The translations under genes were made by a program, and so were the position numbers. The notes below the pieces were generated by a model that was given only the letters and a program-made list of their open reading frames with translations, did not search any database and had not been told where the DNA came from. Positions 59,455-64,000 of a stretch of DNA of 64,000 bases are shown here, piece by piece (positions within the stretch are counted from its first letter, which is position 1; each line of letters starts with the position of its first letter). Source of the DNA: Stigmatella erecta (GTDB lineage: Bacteria; Myxococcota; Myxococcia; Myxococcales; Myxococcaceae); assembly GCF_900111745.1 (NCBI RefSeq), contig NZ_FOIJ01000003.1, positions 620,001 through 684,000 of the forward strand. The letters are read 5' to 3'.

Positions 59455-59486
59455 GGGGATGTGGCCAGCACCCTGGCTACGTCCCC
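59455..59486. terminator. Hairpin between clpB and the sigma factor gene
   Basis: Stem GGGGATGTGGCCAG with partner CTGGCTACGTCCCC (12 of 14 Watson-Crick pairs, two wobbles), loop CACC. One arm includes the stop codon of the sigma gene. No T-tract on the plus strand. Its place between two converging genes suggests termination of both. Confidence 0.6.
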
Positions 59487-60409
59487 TCATCGTCATCGTC
59501 ATCGTCATCGTCGTCCAGGACCTGGCTGAAGCCCTCGGCGAAGTGGCTCTCGATGGCGGCCAGGAGGCTGTCGAACTCGCCGGAGGACAACCGGAGCCGC
59601 TCTTTCAAGCGGCTCTTGGTGCCCTCGAACACGGTGTGCCGGGCGCTCTTGATCCAGCGGGAGATCGTCGACTGGTTGACCCGGAAGAGCGGCCCCATCT
59701 CGGTGGTCGACAGCCGGTCGATGAAGTGCAGCCGCAGCAGGTGCCGCTGGTCCTGGGTGAGCGAGATGACGGCCTCGCGCACCGCCTGCCGGAACTCCCG
59801 GTGGTAGCGGCGCTTGATCAGATCCAGCTCCGCGTTCGTGCCTGGCTCCGACAGGGCCTCGACGATCGTCAGCACGTTCTCCTCGGGTACCTCGCGGGCC
59901 ACGCCCCCCTGCTTGAGGGCCATGCGGACCGCGATGACCCGGAGCCAGCTCAGCAACGCCCCCCGGCCCGTGTATTCCATGAGCCGGGGGCGCGATTGGG
60001 CCGTCCCCACCAGCAGATGGATGCGCACGAGCTGGCAGACCTCATCCAGGCTGGGCTCCGTCAGCCGGAGGTACCCCAGCAACTGGGGCAATTTGCTCAG
60101 GTAGTGCTGCTCCAGCTCTTGCAGGGCGCCCGGCACCTCCTGGCCACAGGCACAGGCGAGATAGAGGTCTGGCAGCACCAGTTGCTCGAGCAGCCCCGCG
60201 ACCGGTCCCACCAGCTCGGCGCTGGAGAGCTTCAGCGAGAGGTGCCGGACAAAAACTTCCGGGGACAGCACCACGCGCTTCCACGGCGCCCGCGCGGTGT
60301 CCCACGCGCGGCGCAGCAAGGTCTCCAGTGCAGCCACATCGTCGGCACCGGTGACACGGGAAGGGGCGTTGTTCAGAAATGTTGTGGCGAGGGTGAACGG
60401 CTCCACCAT
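59477..60409 (-). CDS. Sigma-70 family factor, Myxococcales-type, with poly-Asp tail
   Basis: About 310 residues from ATG 60409 (MVEPFTLATTFLNNAP). An N-terminal helical region of some 130 residues precedes sigma region 2 (RPRLMEYTGRGALLSWLRVIAVRMA) and region 4 (LTQDQRHLLRLHFIDRLSTTEMGPLFRVNQSTISRWIKSAR, helix-turn-helix). It matches the group of myxobacterial sigma factors I know as Myxococcales family 1, often found near a Ser/Thr kinase gene. The extreme C-terminus is nine Asp in a row, encoded by GTC/ATC repeats near 59490-59518, which can vary in number. It is divergent from a kinase with an anti-sigma zinc finger, its likely partner. Confidence 0.85.
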   Translation of the reverse strand: MVEPFTLATTFLNNAPSRVTGADDVAALETLLRRAWDTARAPWKRVVLSPEVFVRHLSLKLSSAELVGPVAGLLEQLVLPDLYLACACGQEVPGALQELEQHYLSKLPQLLGYLRLTEPSLDEVCQLVRIHLLVGTAQSRPRLMEYTGRGALLSWLRVIAVRMALKQGGVAREVPEENVLTIVEALSEPGTNAELDLIKRRYHREFRQAVREAVISLTQDQRHLLRLHFIDRLSTTEMGPLFRVNQSTISRWIKSARHTVFEGTKSRLKERLRLSSGEFDSLLAAIESHFAEGFSQVLDDDDDDDDDEGT

Positions 60410-60512
60410 GTTTTCCCATCCTACCCATCTCGTCCCCAGGTACCCACTGCCTTGACGGGTGGACATGGGATGGTGTCGTCTTCGTGCATTAGATTGACAC
60501 CTTGGGTCACTC

Positions 60513-63500
60513 ATGCCGCGTACTGCTGGCTCGCCCGAGCCACAATGTTTGACCGACGAGCTTCTCGCGGAATTGATTGATGGCCGCCTCCCCCCGGAGG
60601 AGCTTTCCCGCGTGCACCACCATGCGGCGGCCTGCGCCGACTGCCGGGCGTTGCTGGTCACGGTGGTCCGCGGAGGCGTGCAGCCTCGGGAGCCAGACGA
60701 GCCCCCGCCCGAGGGGCCCAAGACCCTGGAGCCGGTCCCCTCCTCTGAACTCCCGGAAAAAGCCTGGGTCCCCCCGGACACGTTCGATGAATTCCGCCTC
60801 GTGCAGTTGCTCGGCCGGGGGGCGATGGGCGTCGTTTACCTCGCGCACGACACCTCCCTGGACCGGCAAGTCGCGGTCAAGTTCATCGCCTCACCTCAGC
60901 CCCATGCCCGGGCCCTCGAACACTTTCGAATCGAGGTGCGCGCCATCGCGAGGGTGCAGCATCCCAACGTTGTCACCGCCTTCCGGGTGGGAGAGGTAGC
61001 GGGACGTCCCTACCTCGTCTCCGAATACCTGGCCGGCCAGAGCCTGGCGGACATGCCGGTGCCCATGCCCTGGCGCCGGGCACGGGTGATGGGATTGGGC
61101 ATGGCCCGGGGGCTCGCGGCGGCCCACCGCCAGGGCGTGCTCCACCGCGACCTCAAGCCCGCCAACGCCTTTCTCACCGCCGAAGGCGAGGTGAAGCTGC
61201 TCGACTTCGGCTTGGCCGAGCTCTTCGACGGGAAAACAGGGACTGGCGCGCCAGGCACCCGCACCCTCGCGGGCACCCCCCGGTACATGGCGCCCGAGCT
61301 CTTCCGGGGCCAGCTCGCGACCCCCCAGAGCGATCTCTATTCGTTGGGGGTCGTCCTCTACGAACTCTGCACGGGAACGCTCCCCTCCCCGCCTCGCACG
61401 CTTCCCCCCAAGCGCAACGGCCCGCCCGAGGCCCTTCCCACGAACGAGCAGGCCCCGGGGAAAACGCCCTCCCTTCCGGAGCAGGTGCCAGGCATTGATC
61501 TCGACTTCGCAGCGCTCATCGAGCGCTGTCTCCGCCTCGAGCCTTCCGAGCGCTTCGCTTCCGCGGAAGCGCTCCGTGTCGAGTTGGAGCGGCTCGGGCC
61601 ATTCCAGGAAACGGACAGCATCCCGGACGCCAGCCCTTACCAGGGCTTGGCCTCGTTCGAAGCGGAGCACCGCGCGCTCTTCTTTGGCCGTGACGCCGAT
61701 ATTCGCGCCGTGCTCGACCGGCTGCGCCGGCACCCGGTGGTCCTCATCGCGGGCGACTCGGGGGTGGGCAAATCCTCCCTGTGCCGTGCCGGCATCCTGC
61801 CCCGCGTCGCCCAGGGGGCGCTCGATGACTACCTGGACTTTCGTCCGCTGACGTTGACGCCGGGCCGTCTGCCTCTCGCGGTGCTCGCCGCCACGCTGGC
61901 CCCTGTTCTTCACCGGACCGAGGCCGAGCTCATGGACCGGTTCACCGGAGCACCGGGATGGTTGGGCGCTGCCCTCCGGGCCCTCCACCCAGACGGCCAC
62001 GGGGTGCTGGTGTTCGTCGATCAGGCCGAAGAACTGGTGACCTTGAGCGAGCCCGCCCAGGCCGTTCGCTTCGCGGAGCTTCTCGACGAATTGGCCCTGC
62101 CCGCGCCCGGCGTCCGGGTGCTGCTCACGGTCCGCGGCGACTTTCTCACCCGGCTGAGTGCCCTGCCCGGCATGGATTCGGCCATCGAGCGCTCGCTCTA
62201 TCTGCTTCAGCACCTCAAGCCCGGAGGAATCCGCGAGGCCATCGTTGGCCCCGCGCGAAGCCGGGGCGTGAGCTTCGAATCCGAAGCGCTCTTGCAGACC
62301 CTGATTGACCAGACCTCTCAGGGCGCGGGCAGCCTGCCCCTGCTCCAGTTCACGCTGACCGAGCTGTGGGAGCGCCGCGATACCGCGCGCGCCCTCATTA
62401 CCCGAGACACACTGGAGGCCATGGGAGGAGTGGAAGGCGCGCTCTCCCGGCATGCCGACACCGTGCTGGAACGGCTCACCCGCTTGGAGCAACAAGCAGC
62501 CCGTCACCTCTTGGGCCGGCTCATCACCCCGGAAGGCACACGCGGCGAGCAAAGCGAAGCGGAACTCACTGCGGAGTCGCCCGAGGCGCGCGCCGCGCTC
62601 CAAGTTCTCATCGAAGGGCGCCTGCTGCATACCCGCACCACGGGCCGTGACACACATTATGAGATCGCTCATGAGGCGCTGATCTCGAACTGGGGGACCT
62701 TGCGCCGCTGGCTCAACGAGGATGCCGGGCAGCGGGTCATCCGGCAACGCCTTGCGATGGCGAGCACCGAGTGGGAGCGGCTGAATCAAGCCGAGGAACT
62801 GCTGTGGCGCGAGCGCCAGCTTGCCGAGGCCAGTGCCATCGAGCCGCTTAGCCTGAAGAGCCGGGAGCAGGCCTTCCTCCGGGCCTCACGGCGAGCCCTG
62901 CGCCGCCAGCGCAGACGCGTCTGGCTGAGCATGCTGCTGGTGGGACTCGTGGCGGGAAGTGCCTATGCGGGCCCGCGCCTGCAAGAGCACCTCAATACCC
63001 AGCAGACCCTCAGGGGAATGCTGGAAGAGGCCCGGGCTTCGCTCCACGCCGGGCGGACGTTCGCGCAGCAGGCCACCATCAACCGCGAGAAGGCCGTCGT
63101 GCTGTTCGATGGCCAGACTCCCGGCTGCGCCCCCTCCGTCCACGCGTTTGTCGACGAATTGGTTCAGGCCGCGCTTCCATTGCCCGTGCAGTCCGAGGGA
63201 AAGCCTGGGCTCCCGTGCGCGCACCAAACCCTGCTCCTGCGTGACCGGGAATCCCGGGCGGAGCATGAATGGAGACAGGCACTCGGCGCGTTCGAGCAGG
63301 CGGAGCTGCGCTTTGCCGCCTCGGAGCGAAAGCTCGAAGATGTCCTCGAGCTGTCCTACAGGAACCCGGACGCACGCCAACTCCTCACCGAGACCACCTA
63401 CGAGCGCTTCTTGCTGGCCGAGCGCTTTCACCGCCAGGAGGAACGCAACCGGTTCGAGGAGCGGTTCAGACGGCTCACGGGCAGCGATGCAGCGTCCAGA

Positions 63501-64000
63501 GACCTGCTCGATGTACCCGCCACGGTGGAGATCGAAACCGTTCCCTCGGGCGCACGGGTCGAACTGGTCGCCAGCGGTGAAGCGCTGCGAGCGCCTCGGG
63601 GCCTTTCGGGCCGCGCGCATGGGATGCTGGGCCTGACGCCCGTCGCCGGGCTGCCGCTCCGCGCGGGCTCGCACCAGCTACGCATCACACACGGTGACTC
63701 GCCTCCGGTCGATCTGCCCCTGCGCCTGGAGCGAGGAGAACACATGCGCCTCCGGGTGGTGATTCCCGCCTTCGTGCCCGAGGGCTACACCTATATTCCC
63801 CCCGGCTGTTTCCTCATGGGCAGTGCCGACATCGAACCCATGCGGCAATTCGAGGAGAGTCCTCCGATGTACCGGAAGTGCCTCCCAAAGGGGTTCTTCA
63901 TCGGACGGACCGAGGTGACGCTCCAGGATTGGATGGACTATCTCGATGCTTTGGGTCCCAAGGCCGCAGCGCATAACCTGCTCGCGAAACTCGATACCAG
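60513..64000 (+). CDS. Multidomain Ser/Thr kinase with anti-sigma zinc finger, STAND NTPase, PEGA and FGE-sulfatase domains (cut by window edge)
   Basis: At least 1,162 residues, open to the edge. In order: anti-sigma-type zinc finger with His37-x3-Cys41-x2-Cys44; a Pro-rich linker; Hanks kinase about 94-370 (GRGAMGVVYLAH, Lys123 in VAVKF, HRDLKPAN with Asp213, DFG Asp231, APELF), all catalytic residues present; a STAND-type NTPase from about 385 (FFGRDADIRAVLDRL, Walker A GDSGVGKS at 414-421, VLVFVDQAEELV); a helical region; one membrane helix near 804-824; helical periplasmic part; a PEGA-like domain about 1003-1085; and the start of an FGE-sulfatase/SUMF1 domain (YTYIPPGCFLMGS, GRTEVTLQDWMDYL). 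It likely senses outside the membrane and controls the divergent sigma factor. Confidence 0.9.
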   Translation, partial: MPRTAGSPEPQCLTDELLAELIDGRLPPEELSRVHHHAAACADCRALLVTVVRGGVQPREPDEPPPEGPKTLEPVPSSELPEKAWVPPDTFDEFRLVQLLGRGAMGVVYLAHDTSLDRQVAVKFIASPQPHARALEHFRIEVRAIARVQHPNVVTAFRVGEVAGRPYLVSEYLAGQSLADMPVPMPWRRARVMGLGMARGLAAAHRQGVLHRDLKPANAFLTAEGEVKLLDFGLAELFDGKTGTGAPGTRTLAGTPRYMAPELFRGQLATPQSDLYSLGVVLYELCTGTLPSPPRTLPPKRNGPPEALPTNEQAPGKTPSLPEQVPGIDLDFAALIERCLRLEPSERFASAEALRVELERLGPFQETDSIPDASPYQGLASFEAEHRALFFGRDADIRAVLDRLRRHPVVLIAGDSGVGKSSLCRAGILPRVAQGALDDYLDFRPLTLTPGRLPLAVLAATLAPVLHRTEAELMDRFTGAPGWLGAALRALHPDGHGVLVFVDQAEELVTLSEPAQAVRFAELLDELALPAPGVRVLLTVRGDFLTRLSALPGMDSAIERSLYLLQHLKPGGIREAIVGPARSRGVSFESEALLQTLIDQTSQGAGSLPLLQFTLTELWERRDTARALITRDTLEAMGGVEGALSRHADTVLERLTRLEQQAARHLLGRLITPEGTRGEQSEAELTAESPEARAALQVLIEGRLLHTRTTGRDTHYEIAHEALISNWGTLRRWLNEDAGQRVIRQRLAMASTEWERLNQAEELLWRERQLAEASAIEPLSLKSREQAFLRASRRALRRQRRRVWLSMLLVGLVAGSAYAGPRLQEHLNTQQTLRGMLEEARASLHAGRTFAQQATINREKAVVLFDGQTPGCAPSVHAFVDELVQAALPLPVQSEGKPGLPCAHQTLLLRDRESRAEHEWRQALGAFEQAELRFAASERKLEDVLELSYRNPDARQLLTETTYERFLLAERFHRQEERNRFEERFRRLTGSDAASRDLLDVPATVEIETVPSGARVELVASGEALRAPRGLSGRAHGMLGLTPVAGLPLRAGSHQLRITHGDSPPVDLPLRLERGEHMRLRVVIPAFVPEGYTYIPPGCFLMGSADIEPMRQFEESPPMYRKCLPKGFFIGRTEVTLQDWMDYLDALGPKAAAHNLLAKLDT

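Follow-up and report, generated by a model that had tools for sequence, protein, structure and literature searches.

The window (the whole 64,000 nt stretch of DNA analysed here) corresponds to positions 620001 – 684000 of the third contig (C3) of the 9.2 Mb Stigmatella erecta genome, and two divergent genes lie at its far end. The first (nt 59477 – 60409, minus strand) encodes a sigma factor of 310 aa, while the second, a kinase gene, starts at nt 60513 on the plus strand, so that the two starts are separated by 103 bp (nt 60410 – 60512), just as the original prediction had described. The kinase ORF is open to the end of the window, and the genome sequence completes it at window-equivalent nt 64604, giving a protein of 1363 aa. 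A search for the same domain order beside this type of sigma factor had been proposed; the divergent layout recurs in 25 sampled loci, the window's included, and so is not a chance arrangement, while being divergent it provides no evidence for co-transcription of the two genes.

The sigma factor is a full member of the NCBIfam family TIGR03001 (Sig-70_gmx1, Myxococcales family 1), which it matches over the complete model (1 – 244 of 244) with 292.5 bits, well above the curated cut-off (154.6). The family name is silent on regulation, and the partnership with a kinase described below comes from the present analysis. An N-terminal extension of about 80 aa precedes the sigma2 (residues ~82 – 168) and sigma4 (~193 – 258) regions, and the protein ends with a C-terminal helix (276 – 303). 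Profile matches to AlgU/SigH and SigE mark it as an ECF-type (group 4) sigma factor, and in a structure comparison its first fold match is to E. coli sigmaE (E 5e-3). In all 25 loci with the divergent layout, residue 122 (alignment position 109) is D and the residue after it is D or E, the latter position being acidic in 86/86 TIGR03001 sigma factors. As this acidic sigma2.2 pair, a core polymerase contact, has been kept, the sigma factor should be active when free, and should need a holder.

Several smaller features of the sigma gene and its upstream region may be recorded here. An ACAC motif (residues 85 – 88, ~nt 60146 – 60157, minus strand) stands at the start of sigma2; its Cys88 is invariant in 86/86 TIGR03001 sigma factors and Cys86 is found in 80 of the 86. 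The gene ends with a run of Asp codons (a simple repeat, nt 59483 – 59518), possibly a tail of variable length. Upstream of the sigma gene, a (G/A)TTG...GCGCATGGTAC-like block, possibly a promoter, is common to 11 divergent loci of one subgroup (L010, L035, L036, L073, L074, L089, L090, L096, L098, L125 and L129); this GTTG/ATTG form is found neither in the window's own intergenic region nor upstream of the ADYC genes described below.

The kinase gene encodes a protein of many parts. A zinc finger of the anti-sigma type (nt 60546 – 60668, residues 12 – 52, ligands C12, H37, C41 and C44) is matched by Pfam zf-HC2 at residues 15 – 45 (26.4 bits, cut-off 22.2), and is followed by a Ser/Thr protein kinase domain (Pkinase, nt 60795 – 61577, residues 95 – 355, 163 bits) in which the catalytic Lys, HRD and DFG are invariant in 86/86 relatives, placing it among the Hanks-type kinases. 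The next domain is an nSTAND1 NTPase (nt 61635 – 62795, residues 375 – 761, 336 bits, model 1 – 378 of 379) whose Walker A reads GDSGVGKS, and then comes a single transmembrane helix (nt 62919 – 62972, residues ~803 – 820), preceded by an Arg-rich stretch and kept in 28/28 relatives. The finger, intact kinase, STAND-type Walker A and single helix had all been recognized in the original prediction. From the position of the helix after the Arg-rich stretch, the finger, kinase and STAND parts are predicted to be cytoplasmic, with the PEGA and FGE parts outside.

The two outer domains fared less evenly. The PEGA-like segment (approximately nt 63523 – 63766) scores below the Pfam cut-off in the window protein (14.2 bits against 20.8, E 0.041), but above it in three relatives (L034, L075 and L013). 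The FGE-sulfatase-type domain, of which the window has only the start (nt 63792 – 64000), proves to be complete beyond it, ending at window-equivalent nt 64580 (residues 1094 – 1356, 5.8e-21 in the completed protein), but appears to be non-catalytic. Catalytic formylglycine-generating enzymes carry a Cys pair close to the C-terminus; inspection of the corresponding GG[AS]W-type segment found no such pair in any of 28 relatives. Enzymatic activity is therefore disfavoured, the resemblance being that of a Pfam domain match alone, and a binding domain is more likely.

The identity of the finger was examined with a profile built from 60 finger regions and searched against all PDB sequences. The matches are mainly to anti-sigma factors, namely RslA (7.6e-4), DdvA (1.3e-3), ChrR (two entries, 5e-3) and RsiW (0.014), after which come the CHAT-domain protein 8rot (0.028) and one ferritin (0.35), and relationship to anti-sigma domains is thus supported. 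The predicted structure has three helices (core pLDDT 84 – 89), and three of its four Foldseek matches are to DdvA, RsiW and RslA, with non-significant E-values and a likewise weak second alignment. In solved complexes of class I anti-sigma domains, sigma4 is contacted by helices 1 – 3 and sigma2 by a fourth helix (PMC7406223). No fourth helix is predicted between residue 52 and the kinase, a region modelled with low confidence. The N-terminal C-x24-H-x3-C-x2-C finger is best read as an anti-sigma domain of the short zinc type, comprising the three-helix, sigma4-gripping part. Like class I members, to which it is related by profile, it has the Hx3Cx2C motif in an N-terminal domain of three helices.

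The missing helix could also be read differently, the finger serving purely as a docking site and the kinase as the activator of a sigma factor that stays inactive until phosphorylated, for example on Ser281 or Ser288. Both residues lie in the C-terminal helix and are conserved (Ser in 85/86 and 75/86 relatives, respectively), so that direct phosphorylation of the sigma factor may occur, and directly phosphorylated sigma factors do exist, EcfP and EcfK being examples (PMC8999054, PMC13147305). The same serines, however, may be mere helix-packing residues, and the nearest solved relatives of the finger are anti-sigma domains. Furthermore, the ECF43 sigma factors that need phosphorylation lack the acidic sigma2.2 motif (PMC8999054), their mark being a replaced DAED motif, with Ser/Thr, while the window family keeps the acidic motif, and activation of the ECF43 type is accordingly disfavoured. 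Overall the docking explanation is considered rather unlikely, and an anti-sigma function of the finger is preferred.

If the finger acts on the sigma factor, the two should occur together. TIGR03001 was found in 88/120 genomes at class level and 104/179 at phylum level, while the 14 control genomes gave no match above cut-off. A set of 88 TIGR03001 loci (80 sampled at the high-scoring end of the list rather than at random, 5 from the window's genome and 3 named loci) was inspected for the nearest kinase within 2.5 kb, allowing a spacing of 15 – 34 in the finger search. The nearest kinase bears the finger in 86 of the 88, always spaced C-x24-H-x3-C-x2-C, the exceptions being L111, which has the sigma factor without a finger-kinase, and L033; within the same loci none of 18 other kinases has it. 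Two checks among relatives that the original prediction had named as able to refute it, on the sigma neighbour and on the Cys/His ligands, came out in its favour. In 20 more distant Myxococcota loci an intact finger-kinase lies beside the sigma gene in 16, and L209 adds one in broken frames; L211 is without a finger-kinase, and L213 and L217 are close to contig ends. At one of the sampled loci (L210:8432 – 14624) two finger-kinases are found in tandem beside a single sigma gene.

The window's own genome gives the same picture. At least 150 kinase domains were found in it. Of its 16 zf-HC2 matches, four fall inside kinase frames, all beside intact TIGR03001 genes, and among the 32 kinase frames in its 30 best kinase loci the finger occurs only in the window's kinase and in that of its C17 paralogue. 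The fifth TIGR03001 gene (L033) is followed by a finger that is still in frame and by what is left of a kinase, representing a decayed pair; an apparent sigma-finger fusion at this place (contig C29, L033:712 – 1840) was rejected because the join is out of frame and the remnant of the kinase is still present. Two further zf-HC2 matches lie in long frames (1182 and 1048 aa) that have no kinase match (G000:C8:222508 and C13:106814, loci L155 and L161), the former directly after another ECF-like sigma gene. These are possibly other large anti-sigma fusions, and may be compared with the match to the CHAT protein 8rot.

The invariance of the finger residues is partly circular, as the motif had been used to select the rows, and the non-circular tests are that of the nearest kinase and one based on nSTAND1. 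For the latter, 20 loci from six genomes were picked by nSTAND1 score and open-frame length, blind to finger and sigma factor. They hold 18 kinase-nSTAND1-FGE proteins, and a TIGR03001 gene accompanies all four that have the finger and none of the 14 that do not (one-sided Fisher test, 1/3060, ~3e-4, treating loci as independent and ignoring kinship). The claim that the finger is of the anti-sigma kind and tied to this sigma type is borne out by the PDB profile matches and by both counts, and the finger-sigma partnership is well supported by these comparisons.

Just past the window, at L009:6801 – 7862 (window-equivalent nt 64801 – 65862), lies a gene for an ADYC-domain protein (PF20032, 3.9e-55) with a signal-peptide-like start. 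A second explanation is that the kinase controls the sigma factor through some other partner (the ADYC protein, a phosphatase or a separate anti-sigma factor) while the finger binds something else, and the presence of ADYC in 24 of the 25 divergent fingered loci speaks for this. It is, however, also found at all three fingerless loci of the window's genome and at 16 of the 18 kinase-nSTAND1-FGE loci of the nSTAND1 sample, including 12 of the 14 that lack finger and sigma factor, and is absent from all 61 finger-kinase loci of other layouts. The distribution indicates that ADYC goes with the STAND/FGE sensor half and the finger with the sigma factor; control through another partner is improbable, and the secreted ADYC protein is a probable partner of the sensor half. 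STAND/PEGA/FGE kinases also occur without the finger, so that this sensor half does not belong to sigma control specifically. On other finger-kinases the tail is made of TPRs or of WD40 propellers, or is short and has a pilus-type N domain. As a correction to the original prediction, the architecture in the window is not unique: finger-kinase heads occur in much of the Myxococcota with several kinds of sensor tail, of which the window's is one.

In a tree of the kinase domains the fingered kinases form two well-supported clades, one of the nSTAND-FGE type, adjoining fingerless nSTAND-FGE kinases, and one of the TPR/short type. A single clade for all fingered kinases was rejected (p-AU 0.003, or 0.0002 with more rows), in tests that share the risks of the model in a tree with long branches. 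One kinase, L233 (L233:5671 – 9681), is nested among the fingered nSTAND-FGE kinases (support 88/85 at its fork, 100/100 for the enclosing clade) and retains the matching linker segment, and has neither finger nor sigma factor. Judged by this placement it is a natural joint loss of the two. Joint gain and joint absence are what a functional pair predicts, and they bear on a third explanation, that the finger senses zinc or redox state within the kinase and the sigma factor is a neighbour by ancestry only. Some zinc anti-sigma domains are indeed redox-responsive (RshA and RseA; PMC8999054), but finger and sigma factor covary in at least two lineages, with one joint absence, and their tie spans several gene orders and tails, making this explanation very improbable.

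The comparative data, that is the domain order, finger homology, joint gain and loss, the intact residues of both kinase and Walker A, the membrane helix and the sigma2.2 pair, are best accommodated by a transmembrane receptor kinase with its own anti-sigma domain and a sigma factor under its control, the finger tethering the sigma factor and a signal releasing it. This reading is a fairly probable one, and a single protein would then probably sense an outside signal and directly hold and release its sigma factor. The original interpretation, which gave all these tasks to one polypeptide, is in part supported. From these data we infer sigma binding, the direction of control, a phosphorylation trigger, STAND gating, a ligand and a role for ADYC. 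The finger, the obvious candidate for the holder, would tether the neighbouring TIGR03001 sigma factor beneath the inner membrane. Ligand sensing would fall to PEGA/FGE in the periplasm, probably together with the secreted ADYC protein; the signal would cross the membrane helix, the nSTAND1 domain would oligomerise and the kinase would be switched on. The active kinase would phosphorylate the finger/linker or the sigma factor, in cis or within the oligomer, and so set the sigma factor free. There is precedent for the last step in mycobacteria and their relatives, where phosphorylation of a zinc anti-sigma factor by PknB frees the sigma factor, the two being separate proteins (PMC8999054). Counterpoints are the weak fold scores, the exceptions (L111, L211, L213 and L217), and the lack of a predicted helix 4, so that docking, and not inhibition, might be what the finger does.

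A wider proposal, which is put forward tentatively, is that these proteins form a distinct myxobacterial class of sigma control. A portable finger-kinase head would be combined with swappable STAND/PEGA/FGE, TPR, WD40 or short-membrane tails, and the kinase domain would replace the sigma2-blocking helix. Its activation would free the sigma factor within the same chain, and in the window protein the gate would be STAND oligomerisation. The component families are all known, and domain databases will show combinations of this kind; in the literature searched, fusion of an anti-sigma finger to a Ser/Thr kinase is not described, and a prior mention in the 2021 ECF re-classification is possible. A zinc anti-sigma factor and a Ser/Thr kinase are as a rule different proteins, and the fusion would be a cis version of kinase-to-sigma signalling. 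Its many copies across Myxococcota would connect part of the great number of myxobacterial kinases with definite outputs in transcription, which for finger-kinases can be found from sequence alone, and gene control by a kinase without an obvious substrate becomes directly testable.

Among known systems, the class I (ASDI) zinc anti-sigma factors RslA, ChrR, RsiW and DdvA share with the window protein a profile-related CHCC three-helix N-terminal domain and a gene beside that of an ECF-type sigma factor, and in them too a membrane helix and sensor domain often follow. In the window protein, by contrast, the finger is separated from the membrane helix by a Ser/Thr kinase and nSTAND1, and the sigma2-binding helix 4 is not predicted. 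PknB with RshA or RseA, of mycobacteria and corynebacteria, likewise joins a kinase and a zinc anti-sigma factor in one pathway (PMC8999054), but as separate proteins rather than a single polypeptide. The ECF43 pairs EcfP/PknT and EcfK/PknS resemble the window in that an ECF-type sigma factor is encoded beside a Ser/Thr kinase, whereas the portions of the sources available describe no anti-sigma domain on PknT or PknS, and the sigma factors, unlike that of the window, are without the acidic sigma2.2 motif. The fingerless kinase-nSTAND1-PEGA-FGE proteins of the same genomes (L011 – L013 and 14 others) belong to the kinase lineage of the window protein, have its tail and its membrane helix and mostly an ADYC gene as neighbour, and differ from it in having neither the finger nor a TIGR03001 sigma factor.
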